Source: an uncultured Spirochaetaceae bacterium (GTDB lineage: Bacteria > Spirochaetota > Spirochaetia > Sphaerochaetales > Sphaerochaetaceae). From it: a stretch of DNA of 64,000 nt. Numbering within the stretch: position 1 is the first letter of the stretch; each line of letters starts with the position of its first letter. The DNA lies in the NCBI GenBank assembly GCA_944390015.1, contig CALXOL010000001.1, positions 1 to 64,000 of the forward strand, given 5' to 3'. The notes beneath the pieces were generated by a model that did no database searches, was not told where the DNA came from, and worked only from the letters and a program-made list of their open reading frames with translations. Of this stretch, positions 5,181-62,571 are shown piece by piece. The translations under genes and the position numbers were made by a program.

Positions 5181-5602
5181 AGTACTCCTCCAAATTTTCA
5201 TTCAAAAGTTTCAACCCTAATAATCCTATCGTTCCATAGTTCTTCAAGAAACGTTTCAAACGGGTGAAGTTTTTCATTAATTATTTCCTATACAAAGAAT
5301 ATAGTACTTTACTATTGCGAAAAACCAATCAAAATCTGAAGTACTACTGCGAAAAATCAATCAAAATTAGAAGTATATTGCTGCAAAACCATAAATAATC
5401 TGCCGCATAAGACCCTCACCCCCCTATCAATCATTTGCATGTAATATCAGAGAGATTATAGGAAAAGTTGTAGCAGAAACTGAAAAGACAGACTGCTTTT
5501 TTCTTTCTTTTTCATACCCACAACTGTAAAATTATACTATCTGCCGTTTTTACTCTGGAAATTCCAAGAAGAGCTGATATAGTTAAGATAGGAGGTTTGG
5601 GT
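5181..5602. other. 422-bp divergent intergenic region between the dehydrogenase and glgA
   Basis: AT-rich and non-coding on both strands. It holds the imperfect 32-bp tandem repeat at 5304-5395, a possible -10 (TATACT, 5533-5538) for glgA, and a weak hairpin plus T-run (AGCAG 5472-5476 / CTGCT 5493-5497). No tRNA or conserved RNA was recognised. Confidence 0.6.
5304..5395. repeat. Imperfect 32-bp tandem repeat, about 2.5 copies
   Basis: Repeat cores GAAAAACCAATCAAAAT (from 5319) and GAAAAATCAATCAAAAT (from 5351) are followed by a degenerate GCAAAACC (from 5383), exactly 32 bp apart. Each is preceded by an AGTAC/AGTAT motif. On the minus strand the core reads TGGTTTTTCGC, resembling the 23-bp repeats upstream of the DUF4143 ATPase at 37987-38046. 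It may be an operator array or the leftover control region of a lost gene. Confidence 0.6.
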
Positions 5603-7060
5603 ATGAAGAAGATTCTTTTCGTTGCCAGTGAATGCGTACCATTTGTAAAGACAGGGGGACTTGCGGATGTCTGCGGAAGCCTGCCAAAGGCTTTCGATAA
5701 GAAAGAATATGATATAAGGGTCATAATCCCCAACTATCATGCAATAAAAGAAGAATACAGAAACCAGATGGAAACCGTCTATTATTTCCAGATGGACAAC
5801 AGGATCTACGTAGGAATCAAGACTCTTACGCTCGATGGCATACAGTATTATTTCGTAGACAATGAGATGTATTTCGGAGGTCTTGTACCCTACTACGACA
5901 TGTTCCAGGATCTCGAAAGATTCGCATACTTCTCAAAAGCGGTGCTATCAGCCCTACCTCTTATCGGATTCAGGCCCGACATCATTCACTGCCATGACTG
6001 GCAGAGTGCACTTGTCCCCGTATATCTGAACACCGTATTCCAAGGAGATCCGTTCTTCAGAGGAATAAGAACAGTATTCACGATACACAACATCCGATTC
6101 CAAGGCACATGGGATGTGGGACACATACAGTGGGTATCTGGACTGCCATGGGAATGCTTCGAGCCGGGAAGACTCGTATCCCCTTATCAGGACACATCAA
6201 TTCCAAAGAACAGCTGGAACTGCTCGATGATGAGAGGAGGCCTTGTATACTCCGATTACATAACAACAGTATCTAACTCATATGCGGAGGAGATAAAGAC
6301 TCCAAACTTCTCAGACGGCCTTGATGATATCCTCAAATGGAGATCAGAGAGGCTCTGGGGAATCATCAATGGCATAGATTACGAAGAGTGGAATCCTGCA
6401 AAGGATAAGAAGATCTACAAGAACTACACCATAAGAACTGAAAAGAACGGTAAGAAAGCGAATAAGGTAAATCTCCAAAAAGAGCTCAATCTTCCTGAAA
6501 ATCCAGATGTCCTTACTCTCGGAATCATCTCACGGCTGACTGACCAGAAAGGACTGGATCTTGTAAACATCATCATGGATGAGCTCTGTTCAAGGGAGAT
6601 AAACCTCATAGTACTCGGAACAGGAAGTGAGAATTACGAAAACATGTTCCGCTACTATCAGAGCAAGTATCCAAACAAGGTTGCCGCCAGGATAATGTAC
6701 TCGGATGATCTTGCGCACAAGATTTATGCCGGAGTAGATGCTCTTCTGGTTCCTTCAGCGTTCGAGCCATGCGGACTCACTCAGCTCATATCACTGCGCT
6801 ATGGAACAGTACCTATCGTTCATGCTGTCGGAGGATTAAGAGATACAGTCGAACCATATAACGAATATGAAGAGACGGGAACAGGCTTCTCATTCAACGA
6901 ATACACGGCATGGGGATTGATGGACAGAATCAACCATGCATCCTGGCTCTACTATGACAGACCGGAAAGCTGGCAAAAACTTGTAAAGCGCGGCATGGAG
7001 AAAGATTGGTCCTGGGCAAACAGCTCAAAGATCTATGAAGATCTCTACAGCAGGATGTAA
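5603..7060 (+). CDS. glgA: Glycogen synthase (ADP-glucose type)
   Basis: 485 residues. ATG 5603 is chosen because AGGAGG sits 7 nt upstream; the in-frame TTG at 5597 overlaps that site. The N-terminal Rossmann domain carries the ADP-glucose loop KTGGLADV (K16-V23), and the C-terminal GT-B domain has FEPCGLTQLISLRYG, the acidic/retaining-GT5 signature. GlgA adds glucose from ADP-glucose to the non-reducing end of alpha-1,4-glucan in the cytoplasm. It stands alone, followed by its own terminator. The pullulanase at 59.0 kb could debranch the same polymer. Confidence 0.96.
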   Translation: MKKILFVASECVPFVKTGGLADVCGSLPKAFDKKEYDIRVIIPNYHAIKEEYRNQMETVYYFQMDNRIYVGIKTLTLDGIQYYFVDNEMYFGGLVPYYDMFQDLERFAYFSKAVLSALPLIGFRPDIIHCHDWQSALVPVYLNTVFQGDPFFRGIRTVFTIHNIRFQGTWDVGHIQWVSGLPWECFEPGRLVSPYQDTSIPKNSWNCSMMRGGLVYSDYITTVSNSYAEEIKTPNFSDGLDDILKWRSERLWGIINGIDYEEWNPAKDKKIYKNYTIRTEKNGKKANKVNLQKELNLPENPDVLTLGIISRLTDQKGLDLVNIIMDELCSREINLIVLGTGSENYENMFRYYQSKYPNKVAARIMYSDDLAHKIYAGVDALLVPSAFEPCGLTQLISLRYGTVPIVHAVGGLRDTVEPYNEYEETGTGFSFNEYTAWGLMDRINHASWLYYDRPESWQKLVKRGMEKDWSWANSSKIYEDLYSRM

Positions 7061-33472: not shown

Positions 33473-33490
33473 TTGGCATGCCTTTTGCAT
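33473..33490 (+). promoter_or_regulatory. Sigma-54 promoter of pspA1
   Basis: TTGGCATGCCTTTTGCAT: -24 GG at 33475-33476 and -12 GC at 33487-33488, exactly 10 bp between them. It differs by one base from the sigma-54 promoter of small RNA 2 at 61809 over this stretch. Transcription would begin near 33500. Confidence 0.82.
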
Positions 33491-33530
33491 TATATAGTGT
33501 GGACCACAAAATAATCTAAGGAGAAAAAGA

Positions 33531-34202
33531 ATGAACGTATTAAAAAGAATTTCAGACATAGTTTCATCAAATATCAACTCAGCACTCGATAAGATGGAAA
33601 ATCCAGAGAAGATGATTGATCTCTCGATAAGAGAGCTTGAAGATGCTCTTTTAAGGATGAGAACGGATTTAAGGGAAAAGAGCTCCCAGTCAAGAGAGAA
33701 CGATTCTCTTATAAATGAATTGAAGGATACAATTGAAAGGTGGCGTAAAAGAGCGGAACTTGCGGCAGCAAAAGATGAAGATGATATGGCAAGAGAAGCC
33801 CTCTTAGAAAAGAGAAAAATAGAGGAGAAATTAAAAACAGCTGAAGAGAATAGGAGGATTTTAGAAAACCTTATCGAAGTAACAAAAGAAAACCTTGCAG
33901 ATGCGGAGGAAAAGCTTAAGGAGATGAAAGAGAGCGCATCAGTCCTAAAAGCACGTGCAAGACTAGCAAAAGACAGGATGGAAGTGAGCAAAGCCGCAAA
34001 CAAAAACAGCAATGCCGATTACCTCAGAAGGCTCGAAGAGATGAGGATGAAAATAGAGAAATGGGAAAGCCTTGCAGACATCATGCAAAATGACATCAAG
34101 AGCGAGGGGAAAAAAACATTTGAAGAACTTGAGAGGGAAAATGAAATAGAAAAGGAGCTTGAAGAACTTAAAAGAGGGATAAAGAAAAATGAGAAGAAGT
34201 AA
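33531..34202 (+). CDS. pspA: PspA/IM30-family phage shock protein (copy 1)
   Basis: 223 residues, almost entirely charged helix predicted as coiled coil, starting with the amphipathic helix FKRISDIVSS-like MNVLKRISDIVSSNINSALD and the PEKMIDLSIRELEDAL motif typical of PspA/Vipp1. PspA coats stressed inner membrane and, in enterobacteria, inhibits PspF. ATG 33531 has AAGGAG upstream. It overlaps a small PspC-domain gene by 14 nt and is under a sigma-54 promoter. Confidence 0.92.
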   Translation: MNVLKRISDIVSSNINSALDKMENPEKMIDLSIRELEDALLRMRTDLREKSSQSRENDSLINELKDTIERWRKRAELAAAKDEDDMAREALLEKRKIEEKLKTAEENRRILENLIEVTKENLADAEEKLKEMKESASVLKARARLAKDRMEVSKAANKNSNADYLRRLEEMRMKIEKWESLADIMQNDIKSEGKKTFEELERENEIEKELEELKRGIKKNEKK

Positions 34203-34856: not shown

Positions 34857-35864
34857 TTATTTTAACCTATCTTTATACTTTCTATATAGTCCTCTGAACT
34901 GGTCGTATGTCAGATTCATACTCATTGCAGCTATTCGCTGATTTCCTCCTGAGAGATCCAACGCTCTAGATATATAAGAGATATCCAGATCCTCATGGGC
35001 TTTCTCATAATCTTTCAAATCGTATTCAAATTCTCTGCGCCCAGTGTTCTCAACAGAAGATAAAGCATCTACATCTTTATCCTCATACGGATTTTTAAAT
35101 GGATTGAAATTTATTTCACTTATTACATTAGAATCTGATTGGTAAACTGCTCTCTCCACGACGTTCTTCAATTCCCTGACATTTCCAGGCCATGAATAGC
35201 TTTCAAGCTTTACGATTACCTCATCAGAGAACACAGGTTTCTCATCCCTTCCACATTCAAATGCCATTTTCGATGCGTAGAAATCTGCAAGCAGCATAAT
35301 ATCACCTTTCCTCTTTCTAAGGGGAGGAAGGAACAGGACCTCAAAGGAGAGTCTGTCAAGCAGGTCTTCCTTAAAAAGCCCCTTTCTGCAAAGCTCAGGA
35401 AGATCTGCATTCGTAGCACCTACGATTCTTACGTCAACTTCATGTGTGATAGAAGAACCGACACGCTCAAACGTTCCGTACTCGACAACCCTCAGGATCT
35501 TCTCCTGTACTTCAAGAGGAATGAGCCCAATTTCATCGAGAAAAAGCGTCCCACCTTCGGCTTCCTCAAAGCGTCCTTTCCTTGTCTGGGCCGCACCTGT
35601 GAACGCACCTTTCTCATAACCGAACAGCTCTGATTCAATCAGGGAAGATGGAAGGGAGGCACAATTCACGGTCACAAGAGGACCTTTCCATCTGTCAGAC
35701 AGATAGTGTATTCTCCTGGCACTAATTTCCTTACCAGTACCTCTTTCCCCTACTATGATTACAGGACGCTCAATCTTTGCGACACGACTAAGCTTGCTTT
35801 GGAAATCGAGATATTCTTCGGATTCCCCTATTCCTATGTTTCCATGCTCTGTAAAACTATTCAC
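34857..35864 (-). CDS. pspF: PspF-like sigma-54-dependent activator
   Basis: 335 residues with no N-terminal receiver or GAF domain: the AAA+ module starts at once. Walker A GERGTGKE (39-46), sigma-54 contact loop GAFTGA (86-91), Walker B GGTLFLDEI (104-112), and a C-terminal Fis-type helix-turn-helix (~300-330). This is the PspF layout, in which PspA itself is the inhibitor. It is divergent from pspA2, as in enterobacteria. The start is GTG 35864 without a ribosome site; TAATAT lies 7 nt upstream, suggesting a leaderless message. Confidence 0.88.
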   Translation of the reverse strand: MNSFTEHGNIGIGESEEYLDFQSKLSRVAKIERPVIIVGERGTGKEISARRIHYLSDRWKGPLVTVNCASLPSSLIESELFGYEKGAFTGAAQTRKGRFEEAEGGTLFLDEIGLIPLEVQEKILRVVEYGTFERVGSSITHEVDVRIVGATNADLPELCRKGLFKEDLLDRLSFEVLFLPPLRKRKGDIMLLADFYASKMAFECGRDEKPVFSDEVIVKLESYSWPGNVRELKNVVERAVYQSDSNVISEINFNPFKNPYEDKDVDALSSVENTGRREFEYDLKDYEKAHEDLDISYISRALDLSGGNQRIAAMSMNLTYDQFRGLYRKYKDRLK

Positions 35865-36019: not shown

Positions 36020-36037
36020 TTGGCACAGGATTTGCTT
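36020..36037 (+). promoter_or_regulatory. Sigma-54 promoter of the pspA2 operon
   Basis: TTGGCACAGGATTTGCTT: -24 GG at 36022-36023 and -12 GC at 36034-36035, 10 bp apart; matches the consensus TGGCAC-N5-TTGCW exactly. Transcription would start near 36047, right at the GAGG ribosome site, so the leader is very short. Confidence 0.9.
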
Positions 36038-36057
36038 CTGATAATCGAGGTATAATA

Positions 36058-36699
36058 ATGGGTATATTTTCTAGATTCAAAGACATCGTAAACTCAAATA
36101 TAAACTCGCTCTTAGACAAAGCAGAAGATCCCGAGAAGATGCTTCGCCTGATGATTCAGGAGATGGAAGACACCCTTATAGAGCTTAAGAGCAACTGCGC
36201 AGCCCTTATGGCCGACGGAATAAGAAAGGAAAGAAAGCTGGATGAGCAGAAAAAGACGCTTTCAAGATGGGAGAACCGGGCTCTTCTGGCACTTGAGAAA
36301 GGCAGGGAGGATTTAGCAAGGGAAGCTTTGCAGGAAAAAAGAAACGTGCAGAACGAACTGGACAGCATGATATCCCAGATCAAGGAGAACTTATCATCTG
36401 TCGATGAGGCGAAAAAGGAAATCGAAACCCTTGAGACAAAGCTCAAAGAAGCAAAAAACAAACTCTCAATCCTTAAAGAAAAAAAAGAGAGGGCAGAGAT
36501 GGAGAGGAAGGCAAATGATGCAGCAAGAAAAGACATGAACGCCCACTTCGATGCGATGGAAGAGAAGATAGACAGGATGACGAGCTGGAACAATCTAAGC
36601 AAGGGCGAGAAAACCGCAGAAGAGAAATTCCAGGATTTCGAGAAGGATGACGAGATTGAAAAAGAGCTTGAAGAGCTGAAAAAGAGGATAGAAAAATAA
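36058..36699 (+). CDS. pspA: PspA/IM30-family phage shock protein (copy 2)
   Basis: 213 residues. N-terminal helix MGIFSRFKDIVNSNINSLLD and PEKMLRLMIQEMEDTLIEL, then long coiled coil (EAKKEIETLETKLKEAKNKL). Paralogous to the gene at 33531, including the acidic tail (EIEKELEELKKRIEK). ATG 36058 has GAGG 7 nt upstream. It is first of an operon with two membrane proteins, directly next to pspF, so this is the canonical copy; copy 1 is probably a duplicated, co-regulated unit. Confidence 0.93.
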   Translation: MGIFSRFKDIVNSNINSLLDKAEDPEKMLRLMIQEMEDTLIELKSNCAALMADGIRKERKLDEQKKTLSRWENRALLALEKGREDLAREALQEKRNVQNELDSMISQIKENLSSVDEAKKEIETLETKLKEAKNKLSILKEKKERAEMERKANDAARKDMNAHFDAMEEKIDRMTSWNNLSKGEKTAEEKFQDFEKDDEIEKELEELKKRIEK

Positions 36700-37053
36700 A
36701 TGGAGATAATAGCAATAGTATTTTCATTCATCGTCGCCATCGTCATTATCGACAACATCTTCGATGAGAGAAAAAAGAAAATGAAGATAGAAGCTGCCCT
36801 AAGAGAGGCGGAGATGGAAAGAGGGTATGCTCCAGGAACCTATTCCCGTTCTTTCTCTTCAAGAAAAGCATACAAGGAATTTACAAAAGAGATGAAAAAA
36901 CGTAAGAAAAATGGGGAGCCTGATTTTCCTTTAAAAAACGACAGGGAAGAAAGAGCTGCCCTTGAAAAAGGAATCAGGGACCTGGAAAAAAGAATAGAGA
37001 ACATCGATTTGATAATGAAAGAGAAAAGTAAGAAGACGGAGGGGGGAAAATGA
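36700..37053 (+). CDS. PspB-like small membrane protein with charged tail
   Basis: 117 residues: one membrane segment (~3-20, IIAIVFSFIVAIVIIDNIF) followed by a highly charged, partly coiled-coil cytoplasmic tail. Position and topology match PspB, but it is longer than the ~75-residue enterobacterial form and sequence similarity is not obvious. The ATG immediately follows the pspA2 stop, and its own stop overlaps the pspC start by 4 nt (ATGA). Confidence 0.7.
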   Translation: MEIIAIVFSFIVAIVIIDNIFDERKKKMKIEAALREAEMERGYAPGTYSRSFSSRKAYKEFTKEMKKRKKNGEPDFPLKNDREERAALEKGIRDLEKRIENIDLIMKEKSKKTEGGK

Positions 37054-59030: not shown

Positions 59031-60950
59031 ATGTCTCATATCGATTCTTACAAACTTGAAAAGCTCCCCTACTATGACGGTCCCCTTGGCTTTGAACTAA
59101 ATGAGAAAGAGACCATATTCAGACTATGGGCTCCGACTGCTGATGAAGTCATCCTGAATCTATATAATGATGGCCTCTTCGGTCCAAAGTTCAAAGAGAA
59201 GAATCTGATAAAACATCATGATGGGCATTGGGAAGTAAGCATACAGAAGAATCTAGAGGGAATCTATTACGACTATCTGATTAAAACGAATGACACCTCT
59301 TTCCAGACAATAGACCCATATGCCATCAGTGCTGGGGCAAACGGGAAAAGAGCAATGGTTCTTGACCTGGAAAAGACGAATCCCGAAGGCTGGAGTGAGG
59401 ATAAGGCCCCAGAGCGTAAAAATGACGACATAATATATGAGATACATGTGAAGGACTTTACCTATCAGAAGTTCTCAGGCATAAGCGATGAGGCAAGAGG
59501 AAAATTCCTCGGACTGGCTCAAAAGAATACGCACCTCACATTCGACAGCACCTTTCCTACGGGTCTTGAATATCTGAAATCCCTAGGAATAACGCATGTA
59601 CAGCTCATGCCGATTTATGATTTCGGATCGGTTGATGAAATGGGTGCGGATAACCAGTTCAACTGGGGCTATGATCCTGAGAACTACAATGTCCCTGAGG
59701 GCTCCTACTCCACTGACGCGGAACACGGAGAAGTGAGAGTAAGAGAACTCAAGCAGATGATAAAAGCCCTCCATGAGAGTGGACTGCGTGTCATAATGGA
59801 TGTCGTGTATAACCATACATACCGCCTAGATAGTCCTCTCTTCAGGATAGAGCCTTGGTATTTCTATAGAAGGAACAAGGATGGCAGCCCTTCAAACGGT
59901 TCGGGCTGTGGTAATGATATCGCATCCGAGCGTCCTATGGCGCATCGATACATCCTTGACTCTGTTCTCTATTGGGCGAGGGAGTATCATATCGACGGAT
60001 TCAGATTTGACCTGATGGGTCTTCTGGATACAAGGCTCATGAATGATATAAGAGAGAGCCTCGACAGGATATACGGAGAGGGTGAAAAGCTCCTTTATGG
60101 TGAGCCTTGGGCCGCAGGTGGAACTGCGGTGAAAGAAGGATTCCAGCTATCTGATAAGAACGCACTCACACTTTTAAATAACGGTATTGGAGCATTCTCC
60201 GATTCCACAAGGGATTTGATAAAAGGAAGTAATTTCGATTCAAAATCCGCAGGGTTCGTTAATGGCGGACAAATTGAGATGCATCTTCTGCGTCATGCCG
60301 TGGCAGGATGGATGAACGGAGACTGGCACTTCAGAACGCAGACTGCTAATCAGACGATACAATACGTATCAAGCCATGATGACTGGACACTCTGGGATAA
60401 GCTCAAATTCACATGTGACAGCAAGGAGGATTTTCTCCTTCTCGATGAGAAGACACTAAGGGCGAATAAAGCGGCAGCGGCAATGTACTTCACAATGCAG
60501 GGAAGAGCGTTCTTGCTCTCTGGAGAGGAAGCCGCAAGGACAAAAATCGGAGTGAAGAACTCTTACAACTCCCCTCTTTTCATAAACAGATTCGACTGGA
60601 CCAGAACAAGAGATGCCGCATCCCTCGTCTCGTATTATAAGGGACTGATTGAGTTAAGACAGGCTATGCCAGCATTTTATGATAAATCACCAGAAGCGAT
60701 AAAAAGAATAACGGGATTTGAGATCGTACTGAAAAAGACAGCTCTCATAAGCCTGGATAACTCTGGCTCAGACATCTATCAGAACCTTGTCCTTATATAT
60801 TCAAATGAAGATAAGGCAACGACTCTCCCACTATCCAGGGAGTATGATCTGATTCTCGATGCAGAATGCTCAAACCGCCTCTCAAAGCCAGAAAAAGTAA
60901 GCGGACTCCTCCCTTTAAACGGTCCGACTGTATATCTTCTGGGCTACTGA
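59031..60950 (+). CDS. pulA: Type I pullulanase (GH13 with CBM48)
   Basis: 639 residues. N-terminal CBM48-like module (LGFELNEKETIFRLWAPTAD), then a GH13 barrel: MDVVYNHTYR (region I), IDGFRFDLMG with nucleophile D327 (region II), LLYGEPWAAG (region III) and VSSHDDWTLWDK (region IV). YNWGYDPENYNVPEGSY-like sequence is diagnostic for type I pullulanase. No signal peptide, so it debranches internal alpha-1,6 links, for example in glycogen. GGGGTGG precedes ATG. Last 7 nt overlap the convergent rhomboid gene. Confidence 0.95.
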   Translation: MSHIDSYKLEKLPYYDGPLGFELNEKETIFRLWAPTADEVILNLYNDGLFGPKFKEKNLIKHHDGHWEVSIQKNLEGIYYDYLIKTNDTSFQTIDPYAISAGANGKRAMVLDLEKTNPEGWSEDKAPERKNDDIIYEIHVKDFTYQKFSGISDEARGKFLGLAQKNTHLTFDSTFPTGLEYLKSLGITHVQLMPIYDFGSVDEMGADNQFNWGYDPENYNVPEGSYSTDAEHGEVRVRELKQMIKALHESGLRVIMDVVYNHTYRLDSPLFRIEPWYFYRRNKDGSPSNGSGCGNDIASERPMAHRYILDSVLYWAREYHIDGFRFDLMGLLDTRLMNDIRESLDRIYGEGEKLLYGEPWAAGGTAVKEGFQLSDKNALTLLNNGIGAFSDSTRDLIKGSNFDSKSAGFVNGGQIEMHLLRHAVAGWMNGDWHFRTQTANQTIQYVSSHDDWTLWDKLKFTCDSKEDFLLLDEKTLRANKAAAAMYFTMQGRAFLLSGEEAARTKIGVKNSYNSPLFINRFDWTRTRDAASLVSYYKGLIELRQAMPAFYDKSPEAIKRITGFEIVLKKTALISLDNSGSDIYQNLVLIYSNEDKATTLPLSREYDLILDAECSNRLSKPEKVSGLLPLNGPTVYLLGY

Positions 60951-61567
60951 TTCCTCCTAAAAGGGTTAATACGCATCCTCACGATTATGTAAATCAGTCC
61001 GACCAGAAGCGCCGAAAGGTGTGTTATGTGGCTGATTCCGTCGTGTACGAAAGAGGATGCAAACTCAATGATAAAATAAAATGCCACCAGGGTAACCGCC
61101 CTCATCGGAACTATTCCAAAGACGAATACCACGGCATTGGGAAAGAATATGGCAAAAAGCAACATGACAGCATATAACGCACCACTTGCTCCGATTAATA
61201 AGATGAAATAAGAGCCACTCAGATAATAAAATAGAAACGAGAGCACGCCCGAAAGAGTCCCTGTGATGAAATAATAGAGCAGATACTCCTTACTTCCTAT
61301 CCTCCGCTCAAGAATCGTACCGAAAATCAAGAGTCCGAGCATGTTTGAGAAAAGATGATATATGCTTCCATGCACGAACATGTACGTAAAAAACGTATAA
61401 CAGCTTGAAGGCTGAAGAAGAATACGCAATGGAATCATTGCAAGCATGGATGAAAGATACGGATAAATATAGTTCGAGATAAAAAAGACTGCGACATTGA
61501 TGACGACAAGTATGACATTGACGTTCCAATAGGAATACTGAAATTTCCTGTTCAAGATATTAGGCAT
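60944..61567 (-). CDS. Rhomboid-family intramembrane serine protease
   Basis: 207 residues with about six membrane segments. Catalytic S128 in GASGALY and H183 in ITHLSALLVG; the HGSIYHLFSNM loop (66-76) is also conserved. It cleaves membrane-anchored substrates within the bilayer. No ribosome site; -35 TTGACC (61603-61598), 17-bp spacer, TTAATT (61580-61575), then 7 nt to ATG 61567, a leaderless layout. Confidence 0.9.
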   Translation of the reverse strand: MPNILNRKFQYSYWNVNVILVVINVAVFFISNYIYPYLSSMLAMIPLRILLQPSSCYTFFTYMFVHGSIYHLFSNMLGLLIFGTILERRIGSKEYLLYYFITGTLSGVLSFLFYYLSGSYFILLIGASGALYAVMLLFAIFFPNAVVFVFGIVPMRAVTLVAFYFIIEFASSFVHDGISHITHLSALLVGLIYIIVRMRINPFRRNQ

Positions 61568-61623: not shown

Positions 61624-61641
61624 TTGGCACGGTAATTGCTA
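61624..61641 (+). promoter_or_regulatory. Sigma-54 promoter of small RNA 1
   Basis: TTGGCACGGTAATTGCTA: -24 GG at 61626-61627, -12 GC at 61638-61639, 10 bp between; consensus TGGCAC-N5-TTGCW matched exactly. Predicted start about 61651. Confidence 0.85.
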
Positions 61642-61650
61642 CAGAATAGG

Positions 61651-61726
61651 TAACAGAGCAAAACAGTTTTTTTCAACCTCCTTTTTTAGCATTTTCGGCA
61701 CCTTTTCTGATAAGGTGCCATTTTTA
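61651..61726 (+). ncRNA. Predicted sigma-54-dependent small RNA 1
   Basis: About 75 nt from the predicted start to the terminator GGCACCTT (61697-61704) / AAGGTGCC (61712-61719) plus TTTTT. No ORF. The 5' part ACAGAGCAAAACAGTTTTTT then TCAACCTCCTT is homologous to the start of the unit at 61836. The U-flanked CCUCC tract looks unpaired and could base-pair with Shine-Dalgarno sequences of mRNAs. Small-RNA identity is predicted from promoter, terminator and paralogy; expression is not shown. Confidence 0.7.
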
Positions 61727-61740
61727 TTACTATGTAAAAA

Positions 61741-61778
61741 TTTCTCACTGTGAAAAATTTTCTCACCATTTTTCTCAT
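61741..61778. repeat. TTTCTCAC repeats upstream of the small RNA 2 promoter
   Basis: TTTCTCAC at 61741 and 61759 and TTTCTCAT at 61771, with GTGAAAAA forming an inverted partner. A GTG-N11-CACC element (61750-61767), similar to the GGTG-N10-CAC sites before both pspA promoters, begins 61 bp before the promoter GG. Candidate activator-binding region. Confidence 0.4.
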
Positions 61779-61808
61779 TTAATGGTTGGAATTGCCGTTT
61801 TTTTCTAC

Positions 61809-61826
61809 TTGGCATGCATTTTGCAT
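61809..61826 (+). promoter_or_regulatory. Sigma-54 promoter of small RNA 2
   Basis: TTGGCATGCATTTTGCAT: GG at 61811-61812, GC at 61823-61824, 10 bp between. Nearly identical to the pspA1 promoter at 33473, differing at one base in 18. Predicted start about 61836. Confidence 0.85.
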
Positions 61827-61835
61827 TAGATTAAA

Positions 61836-61948
61836 TACAGAGCAACAGTTTTTTCACCTCCTTGTAATTTGTGTGAAAAACAAACAAGAATGGTAGCATC
61901 GTCGGCACTCTCTCCCATCCCATTTCGTCGGCGATGCTGTTTTTTTTC
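61836..61948 (+). ncRNA. Predicted sigma-54-dependent small RNA 2
   Basis: About 113 nt. It begins ATACAGAGCAACAGTTTTTT then CACCTCCTTG, paralogous to small RNA 1. A hairpin is formed by GTTTTTTCAC (about 61848-61857) and GTGAAAAAC (about 61873-61881) and would expose CUCCUU in its loop. UCACCUCCUU is identical to the 3' tail of bacterial 16S rRNA. The terminator AGCATCGTCGGC (61895-61906) / GTCGGCGATGCT (61927-61938) pairs 12 bp including two G-U and is followed by T9. No ORF. Confidence 0.72.
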
Positions 61949-61971: not shown

Positions 61972-62571
61972 ATGGCAAATTCACGAAGGGACAAAGCGGA
62001 TTCATATACACAGAGAGCTCATAAGGAGGGATACCCCGCCAGAAGCGTTTATAAGCTCGAGGAGATCAACGAGAAACATCAGCTCATAAAGCCAGGGGAT
62101 AGCGTGCTGGATGTCGGAGCGGCTCCGGGCTCATGGACGCTTTATACTCATAGGATGCTTTTAAAAGGAAAAGGAAGCATCGTATCATGCGACCTAAACC
62201 CTCTTTCCTTAGACCCTGTTCCGCCCACGGTTACTGAAATAACAGGAGATGCGTTCTCAAAAGAGATAAGGGCACGTCTTACCGCACTTGGCCCGTATGA
62301 TGCCATCATAAGCGACGCTGCCCCCATGACGACGGGGAACAAGACAGTAGACACATCCAGAAGCGAATATCTTGCTCAAGAGGTTGTACTCCTAGCAGAG
62401 GAACAGCTCAAAAAAGGCGGCAATCTCGTTATAAAAATCTTTCAGGGAGGCGGGGAGACGGAGATCCTTAAGCAGATGCGACTCCTGTTTGAAAAAGCAA
62501 AGGCCTTCAAACCGAAGGCCTCACGTGATGATAGTTTTGAAATCTTTTTAATCGGACTAAACAAGAAGTAA
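61972..62571 (+). CDS. rlmE: 23S rRNA (uridine2552-2'-O)-methyltransferase, RlmE/FtsJ
   Basis: 199 residues. N-terminal RRDKADSYTQRAHKEGYPAR, SAM loop VLDVGAAPGSWTLY, SDAAPMTTGNKTVD and KKGGNLVIKIFQGG; the catalytic K-D-K-E series is in place. It methylates U2552 of 23S rRNA in the ribosomal A-loop. No ribosome site; TATTAT/TATATT (61955-61965) ends 6 nt or so before ATG, suggesting a leaderless start just after the terminator of small RNA 2. Its stop directly abuts that of the MscS gene. Confidence 0.95.
   Translation: MANSRRDKADSYTQRAHKEGYPARSVYKLEEINEKHQLIKPGDSVLDVGAAPGSWTLYTHRMLLKGKGSIVSCDLNPLSLDPVPPTVTEITGDAFSKEIRARLTALGPYDAIISDAAPMTTGNKTVDTSRSEYLAQEVVLLAEEQLKKGGNLVIKIFQGGGETEILKQMRLLFEKAKAFKPKASRDDSFEIFLIGLNKK

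Follow-up and report, generated by a model that had tools for sequence, protein, structure and literature searches.

Between a rhomboid-family gene and rlmE in the window (the whole stretch of DNA analysed here, 64,000 nucleotides in length) lie two closely spaced sigma-54-type promoters with no gene for a protein behind either, and the question is what they transcribe and to what end. The divergent rhomboid-family gene (60944..61567, minus strand; PF01694) and rlmE, which encodes an FtsJ-like methyltransferase (61972..62571, plus strand; PF01728), are context and lie outside the system, and they bracket two short plus-strand RNA genes of approximately 80 nt (unit A) and 110 nt (unit B). A first-pass annotation had read these as tandem paralogous sigma-54 small RNAs, each carrying an anti-Shine-Dalgarno tract, and the promoters, common 5' end, terminators and relatives described below bear this out; as far as sequence can tell, the locus is a pair of putatively sigma-54-driven anti-Shine-Dalgarno RNAs that is conserved across one spirochaete family.

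Each unit is preceded by a GG-N10-GC element within a TGGCAC-N5-TTGCA context, and both rpoN and an enhancer-binding protein are encoded in the genome. The two promoters had been called perfect; both are present and are kept in relatives, with that of unit A (TGGCACGGTAATTGCT; 61625..61640, plus strand) matching TGGCACGNNNNTTGCW at every position and that of unit B (TGGCATGCATTTTGCA; 61810..61825, plus strand) carrying one mismatch. The genome was surveyed through searches plus a limited set of stretches, and across its 2.19 Mb the pattern TGGCAYN5TTGCW gave eight matches, including the unit A promoter, versus one for the reversed control pattern. Two of the eight fall inside coding regions, and the other six head two pspA operons, an rpoS/rpoD-like sigma gene, an hsp20 gene and units A and B. 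The units therefore account for two of approximately six plausible sigma-54 promoters, which would make them a main output of the sigma-54 regulon. Co-occurrence of rpoN with the units is uninformative because rpoN is nearly universal across the genomes. The two pspA-like genes (window 33474-34200 and 36021-36700), each behind a sigma-54 promoter, are separated by a divergent pspF-like activator gene (34857-35864, minus strand). The sigma-70-family (rpoS/rpoD-like) gene (L098:2060-2995, minus strand; sigma-54 promoter at G000:C12:50458) and the hsp20-like gene (L096; sigma-54 promoter at G000:C27:11646) have an upstream palindrome of the TGTGTCAAAATGACACA type in common, and these shared features suggest that sigma-54 acts above a sigma-70-type factor in a cascade resembling RpoN-RpoS of Borrelia.

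The predicted RNA of unit A spans 61652..61729 (plus strand; match to covariance model R2 at 61652-61726) and that of unit B 61836..61946 (plus strand; match to model R1, E 6e-9), the 5' ends being placed via promoter spacing. Both open with the same sequence, ACAGAGCAA(AA)CAGTTTTTT, spelled ACAGAGCAA(AA)CAG-T6/7-CA(A)CCTCCTT, which begins approximately 12-13 nt past the -12 GC of each promoter, where the first-pass annotation had expected it from the predicted start sites. In nearly all related loci GAGC lies 12-18 nt from the -12 GC, a spacing that suits transcription starting where the conserved sequence begins. Among relatives the 5' tract is fixed, with free variation in the bases that separate it from the promoter. 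Outside the units, TTTTCA(A)CCTCCT has two matches in the genome, both on the complement strand within coding sequence.

The anti-Shine-Dalgarno tract CCTCCTT (61677..61683 in unit A and 61857..61863 in unit B, plus strand) is near-invariant over 32 and 36 aligned sequences, respectively. In the unit A RNA it is predicted to be 92% unpaired (83% on family average), and in unit B 40% unpaired in the window versus a family average of 77%. As had been claimed, a terminator and no conserved open reading frame follow each promoter. The unit A hairpin (61697..61719, plus strand), recognised by its terminator score, is followed by ATTTTTATTA, and that of unit B (61895..61938, plus strand) has a 12-bp stem and a 20-nt loop and is followed by T8. 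The loop of unit B holds a second C-rich motif, CTCTCCCATCCCA (61910..61922, plus strand), which appears as CTCTCCCACCCCA in most relatives, contains the near-invariant CTCTCCCACCCC, and is 99% unpaired in the family; this motif, like the palindrome common to both units that is discussed below, was absent from the first-pass annotation. In the type A terminator stem all seven pairs show compensatory changes and 93% of cells pair (covariation score 0.65 versus 0.28 shuffled), and in the type B stem 82% of cells pair (0.59 versus 0.30 shuffled), with slid controls collapsing for both. The compensatory changes in the stems, taken with the fixed tracts, indicate that the hairpins are kept as RNA structures and that CCTCC and the unit B loop are kept as sequence. 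A 5' stem pairing GAGC with GUUU was also considered and was set aside, its columns being invariant and covariation support absent.

The first-pass annotation had staked its reading on promoter, tract and terminator being conserved together, and in related genomes they are. A search with rlmE yielded 80 related loci, in which sigma-54 promoters and CCTCC recur jointly upstream of rlmE; at least one complete unit is present in 55 of the 80 and two or more in 34, and copy number ranges from one to four. Two types can be distinguished, of which type A is usually upstream, measures approximately 75-80 nt and has a plain terminator loop, and type B measures approximately 90-115 nt and carries CTCTCCCACCCCA in its terminator loop, near-invariant over 36 sequences. 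A covariance search of the kind that had been proposed recovered type A (model R2) in 112 of 139 genomes of the order, representing 16 of 22 genera, and type B (model R1) in 32 of 393 genomes of the phylum, every one in the window's family, under strict filters that could lose weak homologues elsewhere. Carriers include Bullifex porci, Sphaerochaeta halotolerans and a Pleomorphochaeta (L034, L079 and L068, respectively). The draft genome CASFJV has two rlmE loci (L009, L017), both with units, whose rlmE proteins are 87% and 91% identical to that of the window; it is perhaps a mixed bin. The suggestion that the family was undescribed also held: the Rfam 15 covariance models gave no match at gathering score in the window or in six relatives, a permissive Rfam search gave best matches far under the cut-off, and a search of open-licence papers turned up none that deals with small RNAs in this spirochaete family.

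Our data suggests, with a probability of roughly 0.65 for the whole, that units A and B belong to a Sphaerochaetaceae family of small RNAs that act in trans; each would be transcribed by sigma-54 RNA polymerase from its own promoter. An enhancer-binding protein would bind the common TGTGAAAAATTTTC(A/T)CA palindrome and switch the units on, the best candidate being the response regulator of a histidine kinase/response-regulator pair whose genes lie downstream of one for a MacB-like permease (contig C22). The exposed pyrimidine tracts, CCUCCUU in both RNAs and CUCUCCCAUCCCA in the unit B terminator loop, would then base-pair with purine-rich Shine-Dalgarno sequences, preventing initiation on mRNAs with strong sites, so that the units probably lower translation of certain genes upon a stress signal. 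Blocking of this kind is supported by LhrC, which has the same layout and blocks a Shine-Dalgarno region (PMC4132741). The units make up an RNA system that is syntenic across the family, and sequence is enough to recognise its promoter, probable enhancer site and candidate activator.

The palindrome CACTGTGAAAAATTTTCTCAC (61746..61766, plus strand), which probably marks an activator site common to both units, is the sole exact match in the genome and has no other match at two or fewer mismatches. Palindromes of the form TGTGAAAAATTTTCACA recur near unit promoters in relatives, and 38 of 56 loci contain TGTG-N8..10-CACA, a count that falls to one for the reversed control and to 0.3 under shuffling; in the window the palindrome lies between the units, and in most relatives ahead of unit A. 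Three full-length sigma-54 activators were recognised in the genome, namely the window's PspF, an NtrC-type regulator with a kinase on contig C12 and one on C22; a further protein, encoded on contig C24 and 392 residues long, has the same ATPase domain. A histidine kinase precedes the C22 regulator, and in those of the closest relatives with enough sequence a MacB/FtsX-type permease precedes the kinase and C22-type regulator. On C22 itself (G000:C22; L099:13-4031) the genes for the MacB/FtsX permease, histidine kinase, NtrC-type regulator and a substrate-binding protein stand in a row that is largely conserved in the family, and no strict sigma-54 promoter was found beside this row.

The activator comparison covered the C22 protein, with orthologs called at a cut-off of E below 1e-130 that we set ourselves. 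Within the window's genus the C22 ortholog is missing from all five genomes that lack unit A and present in 41 of the 43 that carry the unit (p 1.2e-5), and across the whole order the association gives p = 4e-4, both p values treating as independent genomes that are not. There are 13 unit-positive genomes without the ortholog and 14 unit-negative genomes with it. On the grounds of co-loss and elimination, the C22 regulator is likely the activator of the units. The first-pass annotation had implied PspF instead, and the same RNAs could in principle answer to PspF or to the C12 regulator, which would place them in a membrane-damage (Psp) or an rpoS-like regulon. The presence of two sigma-54 pspA operons and pspF in the same window is in keeping with this, as is the small number of sigma-54 activators encoded, but the palindromes fall into three kinds: the pspA promoter at 36021 carries a different one (TTGGTGTATATTACCACACCAA) from the units, the rpoS-like and hsp20 promoters share the TGTGTCAAAATGACACA type, and the co-loss tracks the C22 protein. 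Control by PspF or the C12 regulator is consequently considered unlikely.

Activation through the C22-type regulator leaves the action of the RNAs to be considered, for which there are two candidate pairing tracts, CCUCCUU and CUCUCCCACCCC. Predicted pairing, scanned over 184 predicted starts from 224 kb (window included), is strongest at ribosome sites; a reversed-tract control pairs with these sites nearly as well, so the scan reveals no more than that Shine-Dalgarno sites suit any RNA with CCUCC, and the pairing gives no target specificity. The target prediction against ribosome sites that the first-pass annotation had called for therefore established no target. A glgA-like (glycogen synthase) gene in the window (5596-7060) has a ribosome site that pairs unusually well with unit A (AGGAGGTT), and glgA and a pspC-like gene rank among the good pairs, which the reversed-tract control nearly equals; neither is claimed as a target. 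A single target with a long complement was rejected, as the extended complement of the units' tract occurs at no start site in the genome search. The unit B loop has one perfect complement (C26:11238), which is not closely followed by the start codon of an obvious gene. On these data, pairing through a short seed with many possible mRNAs is favoured.

An alternative is that the RNAs mimic the 3' end of 16S rRNA, and act either by titrating a protein that binds this end or by a general reduction of Shine-Dalgarno-dependent initiation. Identity to the 16S tail had been claimed for a stretch that unit B alone carries exactly (CACCTCCTT); unit A reads CAACCTCCTT. The exact copy in unit B, the lack of an extended complement at start sites and the many starts with AAGGAGG (AAGGAGG-N3-10-ATG has 208 genome matches versus 65 in the control) are in favour of mimicry. 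Across relatives, though, CCTCC(TT) is the only fixed part of the 16S-tail-like stretch, with likeness beyond it not conserved, and the second conserved C-rich motif of unit B is not a 16S mimic. We take CCTCC to be the anti-Shine-Dalgarno core of the 16S tail in the source organism. Mimicry of the 16S end is accordingly rated as improbable, somewhat below control by PspF or C12, and we are equally doubtful of a genome-wide lowering of Shine-Dalgarno-dependent initiation by a sigma-54 circuit, in spirochaetes without recognisable Hfq, whose tandem RNAs would copy the ribosome's anti-Shine-Dalgarno sequence and favour mRNAs with weak or no sites under envelope or peptide stress.

That rlmE comes after the units in most genomes might suggest that they are leaders or attenuators of this gene. 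Displaced loci argue against leader function: in L126 a type B unit is followed by a convergent gene without rlmE, in L116 a transporter gene separates unit B from rlmE, and in L158 unit A has no rlmE in reach. Up to four units also occur in tandem, as in L121 (genome G387), where four type B units approximately 360 nt apart each have their own sigma-54 promoter and terminator. As a general explanation, an rlmE leader or attenuator is refuted by these displaced and tandem loci and is given very little credence. Least probable of all is that the units encode short peptides, for although an ATG is present in the window's unit B it is absent from most relatives, no open reading frame is conserved, and the units differ in length in ways that preserve no frame.

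As trans-acting RNAs, the units resemble parts of several known systems. LhrC is not known to be sigma-54-dependent. The LhrC1-5 RNAs of Listeria monocytogenes are multicopy, with CU-rich motifs in a single-stranded stretch and in the terminator loop, are under the two-component system LisRK, and have been shown to bind the lapB Shine-Dalgarno region without requiring Hfq (PMC4132741). The units likewise come in several copies with a CU-rich single-stranded tract and, as proposed here, two-component control; unit B has both the stretch and the terminator-loop motif and unit A the stretch only. LhrC differs in having three motifs of the UCCC type, and in sequence and phylum, and no homology was detected by an Rfam match at gathering score, in a collection that may or may not include an LhrC model. 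In the rhizobial NfeR1/alpha-r14 ('cuckoo') sRNAs an ultraconserved anti-Shine-Dalgarno motif is unpaired while the stems vary, and NfeR1, which is activated by LsrB and repressed by NtrC, has been shown to block ntrB translation initiation (PMC10746234). A conserved anti-Shine-Dalgarno motif with freely varying stem sequences is also seen in the units, which have one CCUCCUU in a single-stranded tract, whereas the alphaproteobacterial RNAs have CCUCCUCCC in three hairpin loops.

On the side of transcription, the closest parallels are the paralogous Qrr1-5 of Vibrio, each with a sigma-54 promoter activated by the NtrC-type LuxO, which need Hfq and act on the luxR 5' UTR through their own pairing sequence (PMC2680268). 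Promoters and copy number match those of the units, for which co-loss points to a probable NtrC-type activator, but Qrr RNAs differ in sequence (Rfam models match nothing in the units) and in requiring Hfq, which a PF17209 profile search of the genome did not find. The negative Hfq search also weighs against the trans-acting reading preferred here. CrcZ/CrcY of Azotobacter and Pseudomonas are RpoN-dependent, are activated by the two-component enhancer-binding protein CbrB, and sequester Hfq-Crc through A-rich motifs (PMC6292655). The units would share with them RpoN dependence and a two-component enhancer-binding activator, but CrcZ/CrcY are without an anti-Shine-Dalgarno tract. None of LhrC, NfeR1, Qrr and CrcZ/Y unites all the features of the units, in which the action of anti-Shine-Dalgarno RNAs could be tested where Hfq is not found.
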